A stretch of 64,000 nt of DNA from Saprospiraceae bacterium (GTDB taxonomy: Bacteria; Bacteroidota; Bacteroidia; Chitinophagales; Saprospiraceae), in contig JAIPBL010000004.1 of NCBI GenBank assembly GCA_021739645.1, positions 62,001 to 126,000 of the forward strand, given 5' to 3'. The translations under genes and the position numbers were made by a program. This document shows, piece by piece, positions 13,619-63,519 of this stretch (positions are counted from its first letter, which is position 1; each line of letters begins with the position of its first letter). A model generated the notes under the pieces. That model saw only the letters and a program-made list of their open reading frames with translations, ran no database searches and had not been told where the DNA came from.

Positions 13619-13625
13619 TGAAACA

Positions 13626-13744
13626 AGTAAAAAGGAGAAAGTAAAATTGAGTTTTCGAAATCCCGTACCAAAGGTCGGGAAGGAAAAAGTGGGAAACCCC
13701 GGGACTATAACTTTTTAATTTGTCCTTTTTACTTTTTCCTTCAA
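13626..13744. repeat. mirrored heptad array in the lepA/antiporter divergent region
   Basis: Left AAGTAAA AAGGAGA AAGTAAA; right arm reverse complement AAGTAAA AAGGACA AATTAAA AAGT; ~65-nt loop containing TCCCGTACCAAAGGTCGGGA. Confidence 0.6.
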
Positions 13745-26929: not shown

Positions 26930-29900
26930 ATGGTGAATCCGGCAGTTACTCCGGCATTCAGGAGGCAATCTTTTGCATTTTTGTTAGCCTTCTGCACATT
27001 TAGCGTTATTGCATTTGCTCAACCTACCCCAGTTATTACTGGCCAAACGGTAGCATGCCAAAACAACGCATTTTCTTATTCAACCGCCTTTACCGCTGGC
27101 CACTCCTGGGCCTGGTCGGTCTCCCCTGGTGGTGTCATTACCCAAAATCTCGGCAACACAATCGAGGTGATGTGGTATGGCCCACAAAACAGCACACAAA
27201 CCATCAATGTCATCGAAACTGATTTGGGCGGCATGACTGGTAGTGATTTCCATACAGTTTATATCGTTAAATCGATACTGACTTGTGAGAATTCGGTGCA
27301 AGTTTCCATTGACCAAGATGGCGTTTCAGAGATATTGCCTGACATGTTGCTGGAAGGCACCTACAACACTTACGGCAGTTTTACGGTGGAAATTTACACA
27401 CAGCCAGGCGTTTTCTTAGGCAATACCGTCACCTGCTCCCAAGTTGGGATGACGCTTGTAGGCAAGGTCAAGGACAGTTGCAGCGGCAACTCTTGTTGGT
27501 CAACCATGATTATTGAGGACAAGCTGAAACCATATTTTGAATGCCCTACCGTCCCGATTGAAATCCCATGTGATGCAATTATTGATTCAATTCCAGCACC
27601 ACTTGTATTTGATAATTGCGACGATTCAATTGAAGTTCACATGGTAGGCTATCAGGTAAACAACACCAATATGTGCAATGGCGTATGGATTACCAGAAAC
27701 TGGACAGCACAGGACGACCATGGCAATACAGGCTACTGTTCTGAAACACTGCACATCAGCCCAAATGGGCCAGTGGACTTTCCGAAGGATACCACTTGGA
27801 CTTGTACACAGTATGGCCAATATCCAAACATTACCAACCCTCTCCCATTGACGGATAGCTTGCATACTACAGGTTCTGGTAGGCCCTACGGTGTAGGTGG
27901 CCCTTATTGCCAATACAATTATTCACACGTTGACGATACGCTTGCTGTGTGTGGCAATTCGTTTAAAATAATCCGTACATGGACAGTGATAGATTGGTGC
28001 ACTGGTTTTGTCATCATTGAAGATTTTGAAGGTGACAGCAACCAGCAGCTTATCAAGGTCATGGACTTCAACAAGCCGACCATTACCGTTCCAACCATCG
28101 TCATCAATGCAAACATACAGGGGGCCTACCCGCATCCTTGTGCCTCGACAGGATTGCTGCCTGCCCCCGTGGTTTTTGATTCTTGCAATGATGTTACGGT
28201 GCGGATTTTTACCGCCGTTGGCGAAGCCATTTATGTAAATGGCGTGGATGGGAAACAGGGCGGGCATGTGCCTGCTCCAGGTTTAAAATTTGGGAACCAT
28301 ATCGTTACCTATAAAGCAACAGATGCTTGCGGTAATTTTACAGAAATAAATGTTGTAGCTCAAGTAGTTGACCAAATTGCACCTACGGCCATTTGCATTG
28401 CCTTCACAGATGTCACGTTGGAAGCCGATGGCTACACAGAGGTGCCAGCGGATGCGTTCAACCTTGCTAGCTACGATAATTGCTGCCTAGACCATTTTCT
28501 GGTTAAACGGATGGGCGAACCTGAAACTAGTTTTGCAGCTTCCATTGATTTGGGCTGCGACGATTCGCCGGAGGTGATGGTGGTAATGAGAGCTGTGGAT
28601 TGCCATGGGAACTACAACGACTGCATGGTCGTGGCAAAAGTGAAGGACAAGATTAACCCAATCTGTATTCCGCCACAGCAGAAAATCATTCCTTGCACCG
28701 ACCTCCCACCGGATGTAACACAAGCTTGGTTGAACGGCTTTGGAGATGCCAATTTCTACGACAACTGCGGAGCCACCATCACGGAACTTCCTTATGCAGA
28801 AAACATCAACTCCTGCGGTGAAGGTCATATCATCCGTTTTTGGAAAGTCGTGGACAATTCTGGCAACGTATCTGGCACTTGTGAGCAGCATATTTACGTC
28901 ATCCCGCAATCTGACTGGGTCATCAAATTCCCGGCAGACTTCTACGGTTCCTGTGATGACATTGTAGCGGCACAAGACATTGAAATCGTCAATTTTGGGT
29001 GCGACCTGTTCGCCGTAACCCACAATGACCAGTACTTTGCATTGACGCCCGGCGACAGTGCTTGTTACAAAATCGTGCGCACTTGGAAAGTCATTAACTG
29101 GTGTTCTTACAATACCTCGCTTACCTTCCAAGTGGTTGACCATAACCCGTTAGGAATATGGGTTGACGAAGAAGATTTCAACAATTATGGTGCTTATCAA
29201 TACCAGCAAATCATTAAAATATACGATGACACACCTCCTGTACTGAGTTATCCATTTGACAATCAATTCTGCAGCGTGGATGCATCGTGTGCAGTGGGCG
29301 ATGTTTATTTACCTATCCAAATTGATGGAGTTTGTTCCAATGCATTCACTGTGGTGTATCACCTCGACCTCTTCAATGACTTGACCTATGACCTGAACGG
29401 CACCGGCATTTTTGATGGCCCATTGCCGTTAGGCAACCACCGAATCGTGTACGTGGTGCAGGATGGCTGCAACAACATTTCACAATTGGCCGTGAATTTT
29501 CAGGTGAAAGACTGCAAAAAACCAACAGCAGTCTGCGAAAACGGGTTAATCGTGGAGCTAATGCCAACGGGTATGGTGCCAGTTTGTGCCGCTGCCCTCG
29601 ATTATGGCAGCTATGATAATTGTCCCGGCGATCTTATCATATCGTTCTCGCAGGACATTAATGATACGTGCCGGATATTTACTTGCCTCGACTTTGGGGT
29701 AAATCCTGTCAATATCTGGGTAACGGATGCTGCCGGAAACCAAGACTTCTGCACTACTTTCATTAATATCCAGGACAATATGTTCGGATGTTCAACAGGT
29801 GCTCCGGTCAGCGGTTTGATTGCAACAGCGGACGCAGAACCCGTCGAGGGAGTAACGGTGATGTTGAACAACAACACCAACAACCAAGACTTCACAACCG

Positions 29901-31063
29901 GCGCTGATGGGCTTTATCAATTCCCCGGCCTGGCCATCGGCGAGGATTATACGATTACCCCGCTAAAAGATGACGAGCCACTGAACGGTGTCTCCACCTT
30001 TGACCTCGTACTGATGTCAAAGCATATCCTTGGCATTAGCCCGTTCACATCGCCCTATCAGTACATCGCCGCAGATGCGAACAAATCGGGTAGCGTGACA
30101 ACATTTGACCTCGTGGAAGTACGCAAGTTGATATTGATGATAAACTCAGATTTTCCGAACAATACTTCTTGGCGCTTTGTAGAGAAAAGTTACCAATTCC
30201 CAGTTCCTTCTAACCCTTGGATTGAGGTGTTTCCGGAGGTCATCAGCATCAACGATTTACCTGCTTCGCAAAGCGGTTTGGATTTCGTGGCCATCAAAAT
30301 TGGTGACGTGAACAACAGCGCAATCGCCAACGGTATTGTCGGTGGACAAACCGGCGAAAGAAGTTCCGGAACCTTGAACTTCGTGATGGACAACACGGCT
30401 TTCCAAGCAGAAGCTACCGTACCAATGACCTTCAAAGCCAAGGACTTCAGCACAGTTTACGGGTTCCAATTCACCATTGATTTCAACCCGCAATTGCTTG
30501 AATTTCAAAGTGTTGTACAGACATCCATCACTGGATTGGCAAACTTTGGCACCACGCTAACCAACCAAGGCGCTGTGACCGTGAGTTGGGAAACCAACCC
30601 ACCAATGACCTTGGAAGACGGTGTGCCGGTCATTACCCTGAACTTTAAGGCAAAAGCAGACGGCAACTTGTCGGAAGCCATCGCATTGACTTCAAGGTTC
30701 ACCGCCGCAGAAGCTTATGTTGGAGAACCCACCGAACAATACGACGTGGCGCTTATCATCAACAATGGCAATACCTCTGCCACGAACACAGGGCTTCGCC
30801 CAACCTTCGAGCTGTACCAGAACGTCCCAAACCCGTTCAGCAAAAAGACGGTGGTCGGCTTCCAATTGCCAACCGCCTCCAATGCAACGCTCACGGTTTT
30901 TGATGCCACTGGCCGAAAAATCACAGAAGTCACCAAAGATTGTTTCTCAGGCTACAATGAAATTGAGCTCGACCGAAACACACTGCAAATGGATGGCTTG
31001 GTTTACTACCGCCTTGAAGCTGGCAGTTACACGGCTTCCCGTTCTATGACGATTGTGAATTAG
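26930..31063 (+). CDS. giant cell-surface protein: PKD/HYR-like repeats, dockerin-like module, cohesin-like module, T9SS C-terminal sorting domain
   Basis: 1377 aa; TAVCENGLIV/DNCPGDL-type HYR-like repeats; LNGVSTFDLVLMSKHILG...ADANKSGSVTTFDLVEVRKLIL dockerin-like; VPMTFKAKDFSTVYGFQFTIDFNPQLLEFQSV cohesin-like; FELYQNVPNPFSKKTVVGFQLP...sorting domain. Confidence 0.85.
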   Translation: MVNPAVTPAFRRQSFAFLLAFCTFSVIAFAQPTPVITGQTVACQNNAFSYSTAFTAGHSWAWSVSPGGVITQNLGNTIEVMWYGPQNSTQTINVIETDLGGMTGSDFHTVYIVKSILTCENSVQVSIDQDGVSEILPDMLLEGTYNTYGSFTVEIYTQPGVFLGNTVTCSQVGMTLVGKVKDSCSGNSCWSTMIIEDKLKPYFECPTVPIEIPCDAIIDSIPAPLVFDNCDDSIEVHMVGYQVNNTNMCNGVWITRNWTAQDDHGNTGYCSETLHISPNGPVDFPKDTTWTCTQYGQYPNITNPLPLTDSLHTTGSGRPYGVGGPYCQYNYSHVDDTLAVCGNSFKIIRTWTVIDWCTGFVIIEDFEGDSNQQLIKVMDFNKPTITVPTIVINANIQGAYPHPCASTGLLPAPVVFDSCNDVTVRIFTAVGEAIYVNGVDGKQGGHVPAPGLKFGNHIVTYKATDACGNFTEINVVAQVVDQIAPTAICIAFTDVTLEADGYTEVPADAFNLASYDNCCLDHFLVKRMGEPETSFAASIDLGCDDSPEVMVVMRAVDCHGNYNDCMVVAKVKDKINPICIPPQQKIIPCTDLPPDVTQAWLNGFGDANFYDNCGATITELPYAENINSCGEGHIIRFWKVVDNSGNVSGTCEQHIYVIPQSDWVIKFPADFYGSCDDIVAAQDIEIVNFGCDLFAVTHNDQYFALTPGDSACYKIVRTWKVINWCSYNTSLTFQVVDHNPLGIWVDEEDFNNYGAYQYQQIIKIYDDTPPVLSYPFDNQFCSVDASCAVGDVYLPIQIDGVCSNAFTVVYHLDLFNDLTYDLNGTGIFDGPLPLGNHRIVYVVQDGCNNISQLAVNFQVKDCKKPTAVCENGLIVELMPTGMVPVCAAALDYGSYDNCPGDLIISFSQDINDTCRIFTCLDFGVNPVNIWVTDAAGNQDFCTTFINIQDNMFGCSTGAPVSGLIATADAEPVEGVTVMLNNNTNNQDFTTGADGLYQFPGLAIGEDYTITPLKDDEPLNGVSTFDLVLMSKHILGISPFTSPYQYIAADANKSGSVTTFDLVEVRKLILMINSDFPNNTSWRFVEKSYQFPVPSNPWIEVFPEVISINDLPASQSGLDFVAIKIGDVNNSAIANGIVGGQTGERSSGTLNFVMDNTAFQAEATVPMTFKAKDFSTVYGFQFTIDFNPQLLEFQSVVQTSITGLANFGTTLTNQGAVTVSWETNPPMTLEDGVPVITLNFKAKADGNLSEAIALTSRFTAAEAYVGEPTEQYDVALIINNGNTSATNTGLRPTFELYQNVPNPFSKKTVVGFQLPTASNATLTVFDATGRKITEVTKDCFSGYNEIELDRNTLQMDGLVYYRLEAGSYTASRSMTIVN

Positions 31064-49900: not shown

Positions 49901-51802
49901 TCAAATTAGTATAGCTATCATGGCCGCAACCGCCAAAACGAACACCACCACGTAGTGCTCCAGTTGACCGGATTGCAGCTTTCGCAATTGGCTACTGACT
50001 GCGGAAACACTCGTGCCCACGGAATTGACGAAAAAGTCAATCACCTTGTTTTCCACCACGTTTTCAAGCATCCCGGCAAACTTGTCGTTGGCTTGCACGA
50101 TATATTTTCTGTAAAATTCATCAATGAAAAAACGGCCAGCAATCAGTCGGGAAGCGCCGGTTAGTTCCTCCGTGTCCCTCACGGGGCGAACTCGTTTTTT
50201 GACATAAATCAAAAATGCGTAGTAGATAGCGCCGATAATCAACAGCGTTGTAATGGTCATTGTCAAAAGCTCGCTGGCCAAGCTTCCATGCAGCTCAAAA
50301 GTGCCCAACACGGGCGCTAGAAAAGTGTCAAAACTTTTGTGAATACCCACTGCATGTCCCACTGCATGAGGGATGCCTACCCAACCGCCAATGATGGACA
50401 TCACTGCTAACAAAACGAGCGGAATGGTCATCAAAGCCGGAGATTCATGCAGGTGTTGGCGTTGTTTTTCCGAGCCTCGGAACTCGCCAAAGAACGTCAG
50501 GAACAACACCCGGAACATGTAAAATGCGGTCATCAGCGAAACACCAAAACCGAGCACAAAAAATATCGGAGCAGACTCCATCGCAGAAGCGAGGATTTGG
50601 TCTTTGCTGAAAAAACCTGCCAAAGGTGGGATGCCAGAAATGGCCAAGCTGCCGATGAGGAACGTGTGATAGGTAATGGGCAAATGCCTCCGAAGCCCAC
50701 CCATCTTACGGATGTCTTGCTCGCCGCTCATGGCATGGATGACGCTACCGGAGCCGAGAAAAAGCAGTGCTTTGAAAAACGCATGGGTGACCACATGGAA
50801 AATAGCTGCCGTGTAAGCCCCCAATCCCAACGCCATGAACATAAGGCCCAATTGGCTGACGGTGGAATAGGCCAGCACTTTTTTAATATCAGTTTGCAAA
50901 AGGCCGATGGCTGCTCCGAGCAATGCCGTAGTTGTACCGATAATGGTCACCAGCATTGAAATATCAGGGGTCAGGGCAAAAAGCTCGTTGGTCCTAGCGA
51001 TGAGGTAAATGCCAGCCGTCACCATTGTAGCTGCATGGATGAGCGCCGAAACGGGTGTCGGGGCAGCCATCGCATCGGGCAGCCAGGTGAACAACGGGAT
51101 TTGGGCGCTCTTGCCCACTGCCGCAAGCACAAGGCAGCCCGCTATCAAGCTCAACAATCCAGGCGACAACTGCTGAAGCACAGGCAATTTATCCCCCATG
51201 AACAGCTCGTGGTACTCCAAACTGCCGACATTTACGAAGAGCAAACACATGGCCATCAAGAAGCCAAAGTCGCCAATCCGGTTCATCAAGAAGGCTTTTT
51301 TGGCGGCATCGTTGTTTTTCATGTCCTTGTGCCAAAAGCTGATAAGCATAAAGGAACAGAACCCCACACCTTCCCAGCCGATGAAAGTAATCAAGAAACT
51401 ATCGGCCATGACCAGCACCAACATGAAGAAAACAAACAGGTTGAGGTAGGCAAAAAATCGGCGAAAACCGTCGTCCTCCCACATATAACCCGCTGAGTAC
51501 ACATGAATTAGGAAGCCAACGCCTGTGATAAACATCAGGAAGACGGCGGTCAGCCTGTCCACCAGAAAATTGAAAAGTGAGCTGAAAGTGCCGCTGGAAA
51601 TCCATTCGTACACGTTTACCACTGCCATGTGCGGATTGTTGAGCTGGTCGTAGAAGATGATTGCAGCGCAGACAAACGACGTGAACACACCGAGGCAAGC
51701 CACCACGGCAGTCATGGTCTTGGACAGCCAACGGTTAAACGTGAGAATCACCAGGAAACTGATGAGCGGTGCGAAGGCGGCTATTTTTATGATTAAATCC
51801 AA
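49901..51802 (-). CDS. nuoL: NADH-quinone oxidoreductase subunit L
   Basis: FITFIGWEGVGFCSFMLISFW, PLFTWLPDAMAAPTPVSALIHAATMVTAG. The ORF-track N-terminus up to 51871 is translated repeat; an in-frame TTG at 51802 (LDLIIKIAAFAPL) is preferred. Confidence 0.93.
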   Translation of the reverse strand: MDLIIKIAAFAPLISFLVILTFNRWLSKTMTAVVACLGVFTSFVCAAIIFYDQLNNPHMAVVNVYEWISSGTFSSLFNFLVDRLTAVFLMFITGVGFLIHVYSAGYMWEDDGFRRFFAYLNLFVFFMLVLVMADSFLITFIGWEGVGFCSFMLISFWHKDMKNNDAAKKAFLMNRIGDFGFLMAMCLLFVNVGSLEYHELFMGDKLPVLQQLSPGLLSLIAGCLVLAAVGKSAQIPLFTWLPDAMAAPTPVSALIHAATMVTAGIYLIARTNELFALTPDISMLVTIIGTTTALLGAAIGLLQTDIKKVLAYSTVSQLGLMFMALGLGAYTAAIFHVVTHAFFKALLFLGSGSVIHAMSGEQDIRKMGGLRRHLPITYHTFLIGSLAISGIPPLAGFFSKDQILASAMESAPIFFVLGFGVSLMTAFYMFRVLFLTFFGEFRGSEKQRQHLHESPALMTIPLVLLAVMSIIGGWVGIPHAVGHAVGIHKSFDTFLAPVLGTFELHGSLASELLTMTITTLLIIGAIYYAFLIYVKKRVRPVRDTEELTGASRLIAGRFFIDEFYRKYIVQANDKFAGMLENVVENKVIDFFVNSVGTSVSAVSSQLRKLQSGQLEHYVVVFVLAVAAMIAILI

Positions 51803-51884
51803 AATGGAGATTGGTGATTGGAGATTGGTGATTGGTGACTGGCTTGGGCATCCCCAATCACCAGTCACCAATCACTAATCACCA
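51803..51884 (-). repeat. nuoK/nuoL junction mirrored heptad array
   Basis: Plus strand GATTGGT GATTGGA GATTGGT GATTGGT GACTGGC ... reverse-complement arm GATTAGT GATTGGT GACTGGT GATTGG; overlaps the nuoK TGA stop. Confidence 0.85.
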
Positions 51885-52178
51885 CTTTAAACGGCTTAAA
51901 ATTGAAGTGTCGGTTGATTGAAGGTTTCTAAAAATCATCATCAAAATGGCCAAGCCAACCGCTACTTCCGCTGCTGCGACTGCCATGATGAAAAAGACAA
52001 AAACTTGCCCCTGCGCTTGTCCCCAAACGGTGGAAAAAGCAACCATCAGCAAGTTCACCGCATTCAGCATCAGCTCGATGCACATGAATTTCCGAATGGC
52101 ATTCCGAAGGAACATCACCCCGAATGCACCGATGCAAAACAGGATGGCGGAAAGGATTAGGTAGTAATTTATTGGCAT
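51879..52178 (-). CDS. nuoK: NADH-quinone oxidoreductase subunit K
   Basis: 99 aa; [41 protein letters not shown]. Confidence 0.97.
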
Positions 52179-57105: not shown

Positions 57106-58446
57106 TTATGCTGTCTCCAACCCATTCACCCGATAATAATGCCGCACCTCCCTAATCCCCTCCGGCCTCGTCACATACTCCTCGAACTCATGCCGGAAAT
57201 GCCGAATCGCTGCCGCAACGGGCCAAGCCGCTGCCTCGCCGAGCGGGCAAATCGTCTTGCCCTCGATTTTGCTTTGCACGTCCCAGAGCAGGTCAATGTC
57301 CGCCAAAGTGCCTTTGCCGTCGAGGATTTTTTGGAGGATGCGCTCCATCCAACCCGTGCCTTCCCGACAGGGGCTGCATTGGCCGCAGCTCTCGTGGTGG
57401 TAGAAACGGGCGAAGGTGAAGAGGTTTTTTACGATGCTCGTGTCCTCGTCCATGACGATGAAGCCACCGCTGCCGAGCATGGTGCCCGTTGCGAAGCCGC
57501 CATCGGCGAGGCTCTCGTAGCTCATGAGGCGAGGCTCACCGGCGGCGGTTTTCAGGATGAGGTGTTTGGGCAGGATGGGCACGGATGAACCACCCGCCAC
57601 CACGGCCTTCAAGTCCTTGCCGTTGCGGATGCCGCCGCAGTACTCGTCGGAGTAGATGAACTCCTCCACCGGTACGCCGAGTTCGATTTCATAAACGCCT
57701 GGCTTGTTGATATGGCCGCTGGCCGAGATGAGCTTCGTGCCCGTGCTCTTGCCGATGCCAATGCCAGCATAGGCATCGCCGCCCATTTCGACAATGGGCA
57801 CGACAGCAGCAATGGTTTCCACATTATTTACCACGGTGGGACAATCCCAAAGGCCCTTCACTGCGGGGAACGGCGGCTTGAGGCGGGGATTGCCACGCTT
57901 GCCTTCGAGGCTTTCGAGCAGGGCGGTCTCCTCGCCGCAGATGTAGGCCCCCGCTCCGATTTGCACGTAACAGTCATGGTCGAAGCCGCTGCCGAGGATG
58001 TTCTTGCCGAGCAATCCGGCGGCGTAAGCCTCGTCAATCGCCGCTTCGAGGATGCGCAGGATGTAGAAATACTCGCCCCGGATGTAGATGTACGAGGTGT
58101 TCGCCCCCAGCGCAAAGCTGCTGACAATCATGCCCTCAATCAACAGGTGCGGGATGTGCTCCATGAGGTAGCGGTCCTTGAAAGTGCCCGGCTCGCTCTC
58201 GTCGGCGTTGCAGACGAGGTAGCGGGGTACGCCTTCCGGTTTCGCCAGGAAGCTCCACTTCATGCCCGTAGGGAAACCCGCACCGCCCCGGCCTCGCAGG
58301 CCAGACTTCTTCACCTCTTCCACGATGGCATCGGGGGCCATGCCGAGCGCCTTCTTCAAGGACTCGTAGCCGCCGTGCTTCCGGTACACCTCCAAGGTGT
58401 TGATGCCGGGGATGTGATCGTTTTTAAGTAGTATTTTTTGAGACAT
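57106..58446 (-). CDS. nuoF: NADH-quinone oxidoreductase subunit F
   Basis: GLRGRGGAGFPTGMKWSF, YLVCNADESEPGTFKDR, ESCGQCSPCREGTGWM. Preferred ATG 58446 overlaps the upstream stop codon as TGATG. Confidence 0.97.
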   Translation of the reverse strand: MSQKILLKNDHIPGINTLEVYRKHGGYESLKKALGMAPDAIVEEVKKSGLRGRGGAGFPTGMKWSFLAKPEGVPRYLVCNADESEPGTFKDRYLMEHIPHLLIEGMIVSSFALGANTSYIYIRGEYFYILRILEAAIDEAYAAGLLGKNILGSGFDHDCYVQIGAGAYICGEETALLESLEGKRGNPRLKPPFPAVKGLWDCPTVVNNVETIAAVVPIVEMGGDAYAGIGIGKSTGTKLISASGHINKPGVYEIELGVPVEEFIYSDEYCGGIRNGKDLKAVVAGGSSVPILPKHLILKTAAGEPRLMSYESLADGGFATGTMLGSGGFIVMDEDTSIVKNLFTFARFYHHESCGQCSPCREGTGWMERILQKILDGKGTLADIDLLWDVQSKIEGKTICPLGEAAAWPVAAAIRHFRHEFEEYVTRPEGIREVRHYYRVNGLETA

Positions 58447-58919
58447 CAAGCAGTCGCTTTTTGGTTCAAGTACCTCAGTTCATTGCACCAGAAGTTCCAT
58501 TTCTGAAAAATGGGCAACGGGTTTTCCATCGTGAGCCGGGAAGCTAATTGGCTGTTTTTTATCCTGAAAAAGAAAAAATCCGGCACAGGGTTCGGCTTGC
58601 AGCCTTTCATTATTTTTTCAAAAACGGCGTTTGGCACTTGTTCGTTGGCAGCATTTGCCAATAGACCAAGCACAGCCAGTTCTCCTTCCATTTTGGTTGC
58701 TTTCAGCAATTCGGGAACGTTGATTTCCGACTTGTTTTTTATCAACCAATCCAACACCACCCAAGTCAAACGACCGGAGTGACGGCAATACTTGGTGCTT
58801 TCAGCAATGAGTTGTTCCGCTGAAATAGCTTCACCCACTGTCGGCTCAGATTGAGCGACCAGCACCGCAGCGCCGAATTGCTGCCAGTTTTGAAATAATT
58901 GATTCAGTTTGTCTTCCAT
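58446..58919 (-). CDS. hypothetical protein co-cistronic with a nucleotidyltransferase
   Basis: MEDKLNQLFQNWQQFGAAVLVAQ...STKYCRHSGRLTWVVLDWLIKN...FQKWNFWCNELRYL; overlaps the upstream gene by 16 nt and nuoF by TGATG. Confidence 0.6.
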   Translation of the reverse strand: MEDKLNQLFQNWQQFGAAVLVAQSEPTVGEAISAEQLIAESTKYCRHSGRLTWVVLDWLIKNKSEINVPELLKATKMEGELAVLGLLANAANEQVPNAVFEKIMKGCKPNPVPDFFFFRIKNSQLASRLTMENPLPIFQKWNFWCNELRYLNQKATA

Positions 58920-59428
58920 CCCTGTTCTTCTAAAAAGTATTGAATTTTCTGCGCCCAATCGGGTCGAAACTGTGCTATCCGCTCCATGTTGCCCAACAGC
59001 CGCCTTCGCTGCAAATCGTTGACTTGTGGCAACAAAACCTCGATGTCTTCCAAGTCCTGTTCCCGCAAGGCGATGATTTTCATAGCCAACTGCTCTGCCA
59101 AGCCAAGGGCGTAGATTTTCAAATTGTCCAACTCGATGTCCAACAAGCTGAGATAGTTTTGAAAATCTGGCGGCAAAATATGGCTGAAACCCTTCACTCC
59201 ATCATTCAACCAATCTTCGTCCAAGTTCAGTTTCGCCGCCACCTTTTTGGCTGCGGTTTTCACCATTGCTGAACTTTCTGGGTCAATGATTACGTCCACA
59301 TCCATCGTGGCCCGGAAAGCCCCGAAATGAACAATCATCGCCGCCCCGCCAACCATGACGATGTTGCAGGGCTTGGAAACTTCTTTGTCCAATTCTTGCA
59401 AGGCGTGGATGAGGGTGGATTTGTCCAT
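58904..59428 (-). CDS. nucleotidyltransferase-fold protein (DUF6036-like)
   Basis: CNIVMVGGAAMIVHFGAFRATMDVDVIIDPES (GGxA..hxG..R.T.DvD), AEQLAMKIIALREQDLEDIEVLLPQ. Confidence 0.7.
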   Translation of the reverse strand: MDKSTLIHALQELDKEVSKPCNIVMVGGAAMIVHFGAFRATMDVDVIIDPESSAMVKTAAKKVAAKLNLDEDWLNDGVKGFSHILPPDFQNYLSLLDIELDNLKIYALGLAEQLAMKIIALREQDLEDIEVLLPQVNDLQRRRLLGNMERIAQFRPDWAQKIQYFLEEQGWKTN

Positions 59429-59439
59429 TATGAATTGGT

Positions 59440-59742
59440 TTACAAAAACTCCACTTCTTTTAAAATTTTCGGACCAATGTATTGGCTCAAACCGTTCTCC
59501 GTCACTACTTCCACCTTTCGTCCCTCAAAGAGTTCATCCATCAGGAAACACAACCCCATGAAATTGTCGAAGGTCTCCATCTCCGGCTCAAACTCCACGT
59601 AGAGGTCAATGTCGCTCTCCGCCCGCTCTTCCCGACGCACGAAGGAGCCGAACAGCCCGATTTGCTTCACGCCAAAGCCCCGAATCTCGCTGCGGTGCTG
59701 GGCGAGGGTTTGGAGGATGGTGGATTTTGTGATGAGTTGCAT
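59440..59742 (-). CDS. MNT-type minimal nucleotidyltransferase
   Basis: VKQIGLFGSFVRREERAESDIDLYVEFEPE (GSxxR..x..SDIDL). Confidence 0.85.
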   Translation of the reverse strand: MQLITKSTILQTLAQHRSEIRGFGVKQIGLFGSFVRREERAESDIDLYVEFEPEMETFDNFMGLCFLMDELFEGRKVEVVTENGLSQYIGPKILKEVEFL

Positions 59743-59799
59743 TTTAAGTTTCTTCTTTTGCGACACTCTCAAATCGCAGACTTGGAAGAACTGGGTAAA

Positions 59800-60399
59800 T
59801 TAAAGCTTATGTTTGCCAATCAATGGTTGAAGTTTTTTAGCTAACTTATATTCCAACAAAGGCATTAGTGCATCCATATCTGAATTAAACTCAAAAATAT
59901 GCACCCGTAATTGTAATGAAAGCATCCTTGCCCAGTGATAAATCTGAAGTCCATGTTTACGTGAGTTTTTATGGTAACCCAAATGCACAATTAACCTCGC
60001 CCAAAAACATCTTGCTCTGCCCACGTATAAAATTGAAGACTCCAGGTTTAGACTTTTTTTTATAGCTGGGATTGGTCTACTACCCTCAAAATTTCTATAA
60101 TTTCTTATTTCTTCAAGAATTTTAAGTTTGTCTGTTTTTGATACTATTTCAAAATAATACAATACTGGGTCCTTTATATTCATCAACCTTTTGAATTCTT
60201 CTTCTATCTCACAAATATTTCCAGCACTGCCGCCGTAGGTGTAATCTTTCAAATCAGAGCAATCAATTTCATATGGCTGATGCTCTTTGATAGTATTTGA
60301 AACCTGTTTTAATAATAAAGCTGCTGATTTCTCACACACATTCTTGATAAAATCAGTTTGACTTTGATTCATTTTGATTGAATTTTTTGATGAATTCAT
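59800..60399 (-). CDS. GIY-YIG-like nuclease-fold protein
   Basis: SILYVGRARCFWARLIVHLGYHKNSRKHGLQIYHWARML...PLLEYKLAKKLQPLIGKHKL pattern; ATG follows the nuoE TAA immediately. Confidence 0.55.
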   Translation of the reverse strand: MNSSKNSIKMNQSQTDFIKNVCEKSAALLLKQVSNTIKEHQPYEIDCSDLKDYTYGGSAGNICEIEEEFKRLMNIKDPVLYYFEIVSKTDKLKILEEIRNYRNFEGSRPIPAIKKSLNLESSILYVGRARCFWARLIVHLGYHKNSRKHGLQIYHWARMLSLQLRVHIFEFNSDMDALMPLLEYKLAKKLQPLIGKHKL

Positions 60400-60912
60400 T
60401 TAGCAATACCGACTTCTATTTTCCGACTTCTCCCACTCCTCCACCACCGCATCCACCTTCTCCAGCGTCAGGTTCTCGTGGAAGTCCGCCCCAATCATCA
60501 TCATCGGAGCCGTTCCGCAAGAGCCGAGGCATTCGACGGTCTTGAGGGTGAACTTGCCATCGGGGGTGGTTTGGCCTTTTTTGATGCCGAGTTTTTGCTC
60601 CAGGTGCTTCACGATGTCCTCCGCACCCAGCAGCCAGCAGGAGCTGGTGTGGCATACCTCGATGAGGCATTTGCCGACCGGCTTCAGGTTGAACATGCTG
60701 TAAAACGAGGCCACTTCGTACACCTCGATGGGCTGGATGTCGAGCAGCGAGGCCACGTAGTCCATCACCGGGGCGCTCAGCCAGCCATCGAACTCGGCCT
60801 GTGCGAGGTGCAGCACGGGGAGGAGCGCTGACTTCTGGCGGCCAGTTGGGTAGCGGCGGATGATTTTTTGCACCAACGCCAGGGTTTCGTCTGAGAATTT
60901 AATGTCGTTCAT
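60400..60912 (-). CDS. nuoE: NADH-quinone oxidoreductase subunit E
   Basis: MNDIKFSDETLALVQKIIRRYPTGRQKSALLPVLHLAQ, CHTSSCWLLGAEDI, CLGSCGTAPMMMIG. The ORF-track extension NLLNLLNLLN is translated repeat. Confidence 0.96.
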   Translation of the reverse strand: MNDIKFSDETLALVQKIIRRYPTGRQKSALLPVLHLAQAEFDGWLSAPVMDYVASLLDIQPIEVYEVASFYSMFNLKPVGKCLIEVCHTSSCWLLGAEDIVKHLEQKLGIKKGQTTPDGKFTLKTVECLGSCGTAPMMMIGADFHENLTLEKVDAVVEEWEKSENRSRYC

Positions 60913-60916
60913 TTTA

Positions 60917-60999
60917 TAGTTTAGGAGGTTTAGAAGGTTTAGAAGGTTTAGTTGGGGGCCTGCTAAACCCACTAAACTTTCTAAACCCTCTAAACCCTT
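60917..60999 (-). repeat. nuoD/nuoE junction mirrored nonamer array
   Basis: Minus strand (AGGGTTTAG)x2 AAAGTTTAG TGGGTTTAG - CAGGCCCCCAA - CTAAACCTT CTAAACCTT CTAAACCTC CTAAACTAT. Confidence 0.88.
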
Positions 61000-62205
61000 T
61001 TAAGCATCCAACTCCCCCGCTATCACATTCATGCTACTCATCGTCAAAATCGCATCGCTCAGCATCGAACCCTTAATCATCTCAGGATAAGCCTGGTAGT
61101 AGATGAAGCAAGGCCGACGGAAATGCAAGCGGAACGGCGTCCGTCCCCCATCGCTGATGAGGTAAAAACCAAGCTCGCCATTGCCACCTTCGACGGCGTG
61201 ATAGACCTCGCCCTTTGGCACGTCCATCTCGCCCATCACGATTTTGAACTGGTAAATCAGCGCCTCCATTTTCGAATATACCTCCTCTTTCGGCGGCAAA
61301 TAGAAAGCAGGCACATCGGCATGAATGGCGCCGTCCGGCATGTTCTTCATCGCCTGTTCGATGATGCCGAGGCTCTGTTTCATTTCTTCGAGGCGCACCA
61401 TGAAGCGGTCGTAGGTGTCGCCGTTGGTGCCTACGGGGATTTGGAAATCGAAATCCTCGTAGCTGCTGTAAGGGTTCATCACCCGCACGTCATAGTCCAC
61501 GCCAGCGGCACGGAGATTCGGACCAGTAAAACCGTAGGCCAATGCCCGTTCTGCGCTTATCGCCCCAACGTTGATGGTGCGGTCCATGAAGATGCGGTTG
61601 CGGAGCAAGAGGTTCTCGAACTCCTGCAGTTTTTCGGGAAAATGCTGTACGAAATATTCCAGTTTCTCCCAAGCTTTTGGGGAGAAATCACGCTCCATAC
61701 CGCCGATGCGGCCTGTGTTGGTCGTGAGCCTTGCGCCGCAGACCTCCTCGAAAATCTCGTAGATATGCTCCCGCTCCTGGAAGATGTAAAGGAAGCCGGA
61801 AAGCGCCCCAGTGTCCACCCCGATGACCGAGTCGCAGATGATATGGTCGGCGATGCGGGCCAGTTCCATGATGATGACCCGGATGTACTGCGCCCGTTTG
61901 GGCACTTCGCAGCCGATGAGCTTCTCGACAGTCATGTGCCAGCCCATGTTGTTGATGGGGGCGGAGCAGTAGTTGAGACGGTCAGTGATAGGGGCGATTT
62001 GGTTGTAAGGCCTCCGCTCGGCCAGTTTCTCGAAAGCCCGGTGGATGTACCCGATGGTCGGCTCGTTGGACACGATGATTTCCCCGTCCATTTTTAGGAC
62101 GTTCTGGAAAATACCGTGCGTGGCGGGGTGCGTTGGACCGAGGTTCAGCGTGGTGTATTCCTTTTCGGGCGTCAATATGTTTTGATTCTCAATCATTATT
62201 ATCAA
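61000..62205 (-). CDS. nuoD: NADH-quinone oxidoreductase subunit D
   Basis: LNLGPTHPATHGIFQNVLKMDGE, PTIGYIHRAFEKLAE, SMNVIAGELDA. Confidence 0.97.
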   Translation of the reverse strand: MIIMIENQNILTPEKEYTTLNLGPTHPATHGIFQNVLKMDGEIIVSNEPTIGYIHRAFEKLAERRPYNQIAPITDRLNYCSAPINNMGWHMTVEKLIGCEVPKRAQYIRVIIMELARIADHIICDSVIGVDTGALSGFLYIFQEREHIYEIFEEVCGARLTTNTGRIGGMERDFSPKAWEKLEYFVQHFPEKLQEFENLLLRNRIFMDRTINVGAISAERALAYGFTGPNLRAAGVDYDVRVMNPYSSYEDFDFQIPVGTNGDTYDRFMVRLEEMKQSLGIIEQAMKNMPDGAIHADVPAFYLPPKEEVYSKMEALIYQFKIVMGEMDVPKGEVYHAVEGGNGELGFYLISDGGRTPFRLHFRRPCFIYYQAYPEMIKGSMLSDAILTMSSMNVIAGELDA

Positions 62206-62783: not shown

Positions 62784-63329
62784 TTATTCCAAACCGTAAA
62801 TTGCTTGCGTTTCTTTGTATTCAGCGGAATGCCTACGGCGCAGGCTTTCGTTTTTCGCCAATTCTTGAATCTTCAAAATGCCATCCAGCACCTGCTCGGG
62901 GCGGGGCGGACAGCCGGGAATGTACACATCCACGGGGATGATGCGGTCAATGCCCTGCAAGACCGAATAGGTATCGAAAATGCCGCCGCTGCTGGCGCAG
63001 GCGCCCATCGAGAGTACCCATTTTGGCTCGGCCATTTGCTCGTAAACTTGACGAAGCACCGGCCCCATTTTCTTCGCAATGGTGCCCATCACCATCAGCA
63101 AATCGGCCTGACGGGCGGAGAAGCTGAGGCGCTCGGCACCAAAGCGGCCAAGGTCGTAGTGGCTGGCCATCGTTGCCATGAACTCAATGCCGCAGCAGGA
63201 GGTGGCAAATGGCAATGGCCACAGTGAATTGGCACGGGCGAGGCCCACTACTTTGTCGAGCGAGGTAGCGAAAAAGCCAGTGCCTTCGAGGCCGGGCGGG
63301 GTATTTTCTGGTCGGATGTCAATATTCAT
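62784..63329 (-). CDS. nuoB: NADH-quinone oxidoreductase subunit B
   Basis: [59 protein letters not shown]. The ORF-track N-terminus upstream of M at 63329 is translated repeat. Confidence 0.97.
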
Positions 63330-63519
63330 TGCGGATTTCGGATTGTTGATTGCGGATTGGGATTCCAGCCATTTAAATATCAATTAGGTATTCCAAAAGC
63401 AATCAGGTAATTCGCATTTTAATTTAATCAGCTGCAGATTTGAGCCAGCGAGGTTCGGCAACCAATCCCGAGGTGTCGGGACAAGTTCCGAAATCCGCAA
63501 TCCCAAATCCACAATTGAA
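63330..63519 (-). repeat. nuoA/nuoB junction heptad array, arms separated by ~120 nt
   Basis: Arm next to nuoB reads (plus) GCGGATT TCGGATT GTTGATT GCGGATT GGGATT; arm next to the nuoA stop reads (minus) GTGGATT TGGGATT GCGGATT TCGG. Confidence 0.8.

Follow-up and report, generated by a model that had tools for sequence, protein, structure and literature searches.

The nuo operon in a 64,000-nucleotide stretch of DNA from a Saprospiraceae bacterium (the window; its genome is called G000 below) carries, between nuoD and nuoE, an array of nonamers that is mirrored about a short centre. This raises the question of what such an array is, and how it came to lie at exactly this junction. We argue that it is probably a solo copy, lacking an open reading frame, of a family of mobile hairpins associated with genes for the S23 protein and tolerated at stop/start junctions. 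S23 has hitherto been known mainly from inserts in ribosomal RNA.

The nuoD/nuoE array and its counterparts in the genome

The gap between the two genes is filled by four nonamers on either side (minus strand, 60998..60918), starting directly 3' of the nuoD TAA (61002..61000). On the minus strand the order is AGGGTTTAG AGGGTTTAG AAAGTTTAG TGGGTTTAG / CAGGCCCCCAA / CTAAACCTT CTAAACCTT CTAAACCTC CTAAACTAT, followed by AAA and the nuoE ATG (60912). The parts, with their host genes and the evidence for each, are:

61000..62205, minus strand: nuoD, host gene upstream of the array, whose stop codon abuts it
60963..60998, minus strand: 5' arm in the nuo sense, the four nonamers AGGGTTTAG AGGGTTTAG AAAGTTTAG TGGGTTTAG (sequence, repeat tools, core-pattern count)
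60952..60962, minus strand: loop CAGGCCCCCAA, 11 nt, which differs among copies of the family (sequence, fold, copy comparison)
60918..60951, minus strand: 3' arm CTAAACCTT CTAAACCTT CTAAACCTC CTAAACTA(T), ending 5 nt from the nuoE ATG (sequence, repeat tools, core-pattern count)
60400..60912, minus strand: nuoE, host gene downstream of the array, whose start codon comes next after it

The mirrored 4 + 4 array, which had been described in a first-pass annotation, is real and its halves are related: Tandem Repeats Finder gives a period of 9 in both, and together they form an inverted repeat with arms of 33 nt that are 85% complementary without gaps. Folded as RNA, the minus-strand junction reaches a minimum free energy of -41.1 kcal/mol; dinucleotide shuffles average -20.5 +/- 3.3, and none of 200 is as stable (z -6.2). 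The pairing had been called almost perfect; it is good, but it is interrupted at the third unit by an A.C mismatch and is offset at the loop. The core GTTTAGNNGGTTTAG occurs five times in the window, always within this array, with 0.00 occurrences expected. The array has no terminator tail, in the sense of a GC-rich stem with a U run, and no match in Rfam at the gathering score. By NuoD, the closest relatives are metagenome-assembled genomes labelled Saprospiraceae, Saprospirales or Bacteroidetes (91-97% identity). Downstream, several non-nuo ORFs break the operon between nuoE and nuoF (58446-60399), one of which (59440-59772) resembles a small nucleotidyltransferase.

Further arrays are present in the window, several of which have a word in common with the arms of S23 elements elsewhere:

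13625..13734: array with the word AAAGTAAAAAGGA, common to the arms of S23 element L124
31058..31130: mirrored array of 7-nt words at the 3' end of ORF 26930-31063
51801..51888: hairpin array nuoK/nuoL, 7-nt word GATTGGT, common to the arms of S23 element L120
52188..52251: hairpin array nuoJ/nuoK, 7/8-nt word GAGGTAT, common to the arms of S23 element L118
52757..52832: hairpin array nuoI/nuoJ, 8-nt word TTTGAGGA
63328..63515: degenerate array nuoA/nuoB, word ATTGCGG, common to S23 elements L126 and L127

The nuoI/nuoJ array runs into the 3' end of nuoI, such that the last codons and the stop (ATTGAGGATATGGAGATT TGA) are array units, and where the array enters the gene the C-terminus is unlike those of its relatives.

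A strict, ungapped search recovered 37 hairpins with tandem arms in 748 kb of G000, about 5 per 100 kb. A 160-kb contig has 14 inverted repeats of all kinds, where simulated sequence of the same dinucleotide composition has 2. The 5' arm has more G than C in 35 of the 37 arrays, compared to 24 of 54 other inverted repeats. Twenty-five lie between co-directional genes, with 3 convergent, 4 divergent and 5 unplaced, and by the distances from a purpose-built gene caller 28 of 31 edges facing a stop codon are within 21 nt of it, while 21 of 25 edges facing the next start are within 23 nt.

Periods in G000 are mostly 7, 8 and 14/15 (two units), 9 or 10 being rare. The suggestion that the nuoD/nuoE array is a nonamer version of arrays elsewhere in the operon is borne out; the other nuo arrays use words of 7-8 nt. 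The longer period is a trait of the GGTTTAG word family: in a comparison of 27 ordinary GGTTTAG hairpins the cores are spaced 9 nt apart 115 times and 10 nt apart 17 times, so the nonamer belongs to the family as a whole. Hairpins of this word also stand at two unrelated gene ends in G000 (L001, L002) and at many sites in a congeneric genome, G001. As had been noted, an all-frame-stop function alone is no explanation, since a 9-nt period keeps the frame. Nor is a stop cassette a general account of the arrays: some words contain TGA or TAG and supply the stop of the upstream gene, and others (GGCTATTGG, CAGTTGG, GATTTACG, ATTGCGG) contain no stop.

Insertion polymorphism at orthologous gaps

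A comparison of seven congeneric nuo operons reveals that orthologous gaps lack the arrays in some relatives. Between nuoB and nuoC there is a bare TAA in G000, G009, G006 and G010; in G001 the gap is taken up by a GGTTTAG hairpin of 84 nt, and in G008 by one of the word GTGAGAAGG. The nuoG/nuoH gap is 20 nt in G000, contains a 99-nt GGTTTAG hairpin in G001 and has a different word in G008. Immediately before nuoI, G000 has a gap of 18 nt, G005 a GGTTTAG hairpin, and both G001 and G008 a GTCATTTGTCATT array. The nuoJ/nuoK junction holds hairpins of different words in different species. Because orthologous gaps are empty in relatives (bare TAA or about 20 nt), we conclude that the arrays are insertions. 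No convincing target-site duplication was found, either in the nuo gaps or in the Nostoc plasmid gaps described below.

At the nuoD/nuoE junction itself, the nonamer array is present in G000, G009 and G001, other palindromes occupy the site in G005, G006, G008 and G010, and G007 has none. What the first-pass annotation named as evidence against its reading, unrelated non-palindromic sequence at this junction in close relatives, is thus seen in part, in the different palindromes and the empty site; but the two genomes that keep the orthologous array, G009 and G001, are close relatives by NuoD.

Several other sequences are found in or near the same gaps. In G008 (L007) the nuoC/D, nuoD/E and nuoF/G gaps contain longer palindromic repeats (TTTGTCATTGCCGNAGGCAAAC, about 30 nt), and the gaps of the same operon contain a candidate RAYT-like gene with REP-like GCCGC palindromes. 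Other dispersed palindromes (CCCCTGACCCCTAAAGGGGAACC, CCCCCTTTGAAGGGGGTTAGGGGGATG) occur in these gaps in L108/L155 (G005) and L106 (G010). S23 elements are also seen between nuoC and nuoD in other Bacteroidota families (L185, L190), and the nuo operon thus appears to take up insertions repeatedly.

S23 genes, array words and copy number

The S23 or 23S-rRNA-intervening-sequence protein (PF05635, TIGR02436) is a four-helix bundle which resembles Avd and for which, to our knowledge, neither an enzymatic activity nor an established function has been described so far. A search of the PDB with the S23 profile matches 2gsc, which is the S23 protein XCC0516 of Xanthomonas campestris, and 2rld, both with five chains per entry; Avd is absent from the profile matches. 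Mutagenesis of the word at adenines, as in diversity-generating retroelements, was considered and ruled out: with A present on both strands of the conserved core, the word does not bear that signature.

Mirrored tandem arrays flank every one of the 13 S23 ORFs in G000, with inverted-repeat scores of 17-44.5 against at most 13 for shuffles; three of these ORFs (L119, L125, L128) are broken by an internal stop or truncated. On a strict test requiring an exact mirrored word, 9 of 13 S23 loci in G000 are positive, as are 21 of 37 in the genus, 5 of 12 on plasmids (mostly cyanobacterial) and 6 of 30 across the phylum, where arms are short or degenerate; among control ORFs the figures are 2/288 and 5/230. 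S23 ORFs are present in 188 of 249 sampled Bacteroidota genomes, with a maximum of 17 in a genome, and are flanked by arrays in the same layout, often in degenerate form. Beyond this phylum, gaps of 3-4 nt in one Nostoc plasmid record hold array, S23 and array in another, in both directions, and a Gemmatimonadota plasmid has GAGGGCAGG-type arrays on either side of an S23 match. At one orthologous S23 site in eight genomes, native arm pairs have a mean duplex energy of -28.9 kcal/mol versus -21.1 for swapped arms, an uneven effect on which we place no weight.

The nuoD/nuoE copy has an 11-nt loop in place of an S23 ORF, but relatives with the same word in G001, G009 and G003 do carry one. In G001 and G009 this is an S23-family ORF at nuoC/nuoD, flanked by two complete GGTTTAG hairpins; in G003 it lies at another junction. 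The three GGTTTAG-armed genes are 64-77% identical to one another, and a search with this S23 type returns G001, G009 and G003 at 100, 79 and 68% identity, the next match being at 50%. No GGTTTAG-type S23 gene is present in G000, so the nuoD/nuoE copy, which G001 and G009 share, is probably a leftover.

Word and S23 subfamily are linked more generally. Among the 37 ORF-less arrays of G000, 26 share 8-mers with the arms of the genome's own S23 elements, against a mean of 14.6 and a maximum of 23 for 300 sets of S23 arms drawn from other congeneric genomes. In a set of 92 distinct S23 loci, three or more arm 9-mers are shared by 28 of 46 pairs with at least 60% protein identity (all at non-orthologous sites), by 106 of 551 at 45-60% and by about 12% below 45%.

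Copy number follows the same pattern in the two words for which it was tested, both chosen from words seen in arrays. Counts of GTTTAGNNGGTTTAG (GTTTAG) are 170 in G001, 67 in G003 and 18 in G009, with at most 15 in the other eleven genomes, a small margin for the third carrier. GAGGTAT is found 226 times in G008, 59 in G000, 47 in G006 and 35 in G009, and at most 23 times in the other ten; its cognate S23 is present at 76-100% identity in exactly these four genomes (in two pieces in G009). Each word is thus most abundant in exactly the carriers of its cognate S23, 3 and 4 of 14 congeneric genomes respectively (exact rank P 0.0027 and 0.0010). In an RpoC tree, which leaves out G010 as it gave no RpoC match, the carriers are scattered, with G003 well apart from G001 and G009, and the second cognate is missing from G007, the sister of G008. 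Of the G001 GTTTAG copies, about nine are part of a different repeat whose flanks are conserved (GTGTAAAAGATAACTTGTTTAG ... CTAAACCAAAACTTCACAACTTATTTTT; L368, L369, L371, L373, L379, L380, L382, L385). It has a very short loop and contains a GGTTTAG hairpin; this is apparently a separate, MITE-like element that captured the word.

What, then, is inherited from copy to copy? Across the 27 GGTTTAG hairpins there is no full-length conservation, only the word being common, and loops are no more alike than shuffled loops. The variable dinucleotides between GGTTTAG cores agree at 34% between the two arms of one copy, versus 17% between copies (P 0.001). A copy therefore has the word of its family but a loop of its own, and each arm resembles a diverged image of the other. 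We infer that synthesis of a word array followed by fold-back copying fits these features better than cut-and-paste of a fixed segment.

That the nuoD/nuoE array is a solo member of such a family is supported by the gap polymorphism, the placement at stop/start junctions, the linkage of word and S23, the copy numbers, the mirrored arms and the unrelated loops. A member comprises a G/T-rich tandem array of the family word (RRGGTTTAG in this case, at 9-10 nt) and its complement, separated by a loop that no other copy shares, and occupies the gap from a stop codon to the start codon of the following gene; fuller members carry an S23 gene between arrays of the same word. As to the chemistry of mobility and a causal part for S23, we infer that S23, together with host factors, may promote the formation of new copies, and that these would arise by re-synthesis of the word array and fold-back, not by movement of a fixed DNA segment. 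The hairpin would be tolerated since the RNA stem that it adds, probably a substrate of RNase III, leaves both reading frames intact.

A more specific version, which we put forward tentatively and consider possible rather than probable, is that a word is inherited instead of a fixed sequence: S23 itself would direct the synthesis, at stop/start junctions, of mirrored tandem arrays built from its cognate 7-10-nt word. Each copy would then receive the word with fresh variable positions and a fresh loop, perhaps through 3'-end extension and subsequent fold-back copying. S23-directed synthesis of this kind would explain the polarity of the arms (G>C in 35/37), their mirrored arrangement and the unrelated loops.

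Alternative origins and known systems

The most serious alternative is that S23 and other small genes are passengers, inserted between pre-existing hairpins which spread by host or transposon activity. S23 is not the only gene found in this position: a VapB-like gene and a PIN-domain (VapC-like) gene form a pair between two complete GGTTTAG hairpins at nuoD/nuoE in G001 (L004:11190-12130), and a GxxExxY gene lies between two complete hairpins at the same junction in G006 (L006:5665-6400). The completeness of the two hairpins that flank S23 at nuoC/nuoD in G001 and G009, and the presence of the word inside a repeat with conserved flanks in G001, are likewise as passengers would lead one to expect. 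However, if S23 were a passenger, its subfamily would not be expected to go with the array word and with the abundance of that word across the genome, and on the Nostoc plasmids arrays and S23 together fill a gap that is otherwise 3-4 nt. We therefore regard this explanation as unlikely. Selection of the arrays as host regulatory hairpins in the nuo operon, acting in intercistronic mRNA processing, stability or attenuation, with the S23 association incidental, is a less probable account still. It is consistent with a very stable stem exactly at the stop/start gap, with the occupation of several nuo junctions and with that of nuoJ/nuoK by different words in different species. Yet arrays are present or absent at orthologous junctions within one genus, the occupied junctions differ by species and the same word is found at unrelated genes; the lack of a terminator tail and of an Rfam match at the gathering score also argues against it, and the correlation between S23 and word is left unexplained.

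Two further explanations we consider very improbable. The first-pass annotation had suggested seeding from the 3' end of nuoD, a form of local origin in which replication slippage and fold-back copying are seeded by the upstream gene and no mobile element is involved. Some arrays do supply the upstream stop codon, the arms within a copy are mirror images and the nuoD end slightly resembles the unit. However, the presence of the nonamer word at unrelated gene ends, in this genome and in G001, means that the array was not made from the nuoD 3' end, and copy numbers are very different between genomes. Relatives that have the array in common do not agree in their nuoD stop codon (TAA, TGA, TGA), and G007 (L008) has no array at the site. 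Local origin is largely refuted by the sharing of words between unrelated loci; the observation of the array was correct, and the proposed 3'-end origin is wrong. An ordinary MITE or REP moved by a known transposase, of DDE or RAYT type, has as little to recommend it. The short dispersed palindromes, the bursts in copy number and the candidate RAYT-like gene that accompanies REP-like palindromes among the nuo genes of G008 would suit such an element, but only the word is shared and loops are unrelated between copies, unlike in a MITE, and the ORFs read between GGTTTAG or GAGGTAT arrays are S23 or the PIN/VapB-like pair, not a transposase.

GxxExxY genes (PD-(D/E)XK-like, PF13366) are themselves often bracketed by complementary arrays (L129-L131 in G000, L214-L243 across the phylum, and L006:5665-6400), for which one widespread word, CACAGAGG / CGCAAAGG, of 8-10 nt is used, against the variable words of S23. 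A period of 9 as the mark of this class was considered and rejected, as GxxExxY flanks have their own word and GGTTTAG goes with an S23 subfamily. ATACT very often precedes the starts of both S23 and GxxExxY genes (ATACT-ATG; L116-L131, L006), a 5' feature common to two unrelated families.

Returning to the reading of the nuoD/nuoE array as a solo copy of an S23-associated hairpin, the nearest known system is the 23S rRNA intervening sequence (IVS) with an S23p ORF. In Coxiella burnetii the IVS has inverted ends, an S23p ORF and, just upstream, tandem GACAGAT heptamers of strain-variable number, and it is excised by RNase III (PMC4990558). The likeness lies in an S23 ORF between complementary, stem-forming ends, in the tandem heptamers and in a sporadic presence that suggests mobility. 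IVSs differ, however, in being inside 23S rRNA, while the arrays described here lie between protein genes at stop/start junctions, where ORF-less stems are the most numerous form and fall into word families with cognate S23 subfamilies. The nuoD/nuoE copy has the long stem of complementary ends and lacks the 23S rRNA site and the S23 ORF; by analogy, it resembles an S23 intervening-sequence element of which only the stem is left.

Other intergenic repeats are comparable in part. The heptamers of Xanthomonas and Nostoc, GGGAATC and GGGGA(C/T)T, are intergenic, number many per genome, have been studied as G-quadruplexes and in Xanthomonas include 70-75 cases in inverted pairs (PMC4692102). They are thus similar 7-nt arrays, but that study contains no link to S23 and no word families. 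The TAACTGA repeats of Beggiatoaceae, Cyanobacteria and some Bacteroidetes form intergenic heptamer arrays near starts with a patchy distribution, and are nearly all direct (169 sets, one indirect; PMC4679880); they differ in being direct instead of mirrored, in using one word and in having no partner gene. REP/REPIN and MITE sequences are also small, dispersed intergenic palindromes with lineage-specific bursts, but they copy a conserved sequence and need a RAYT or other transposase, whereas here loop and variable positions differ in each copy. A conserved palindrome, GTAG- or CGTC-type ends and a RAYT partner, as in REP/REPIN, were not found: the word alone is shared, and the partner is S23. 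In the open-access literature we found no paper that joins mirrored intergenic arrays to S23 genes; subscription papers fell mostly outside this search, and novelty is accordingly provisional.

The intergenic heptamer repeats of several phyla have so far been described as unexplained simple repeats. Joining them to the S23 proteins yields a testable claim, namely that mobile hairpins of a specific word have S23 as their partner gene. If true, it would explain hundreds of intergenic stem-loops per genome (extrapolated from 37 in 748 kb), would suggest a source for the intervening sequences of rRNA, and would pose the question of how copying can pass on a repeat word and leave the loop behind. 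Should S23 direct the synthesis of the word, this would provide a function for the S23/IVS protein family.
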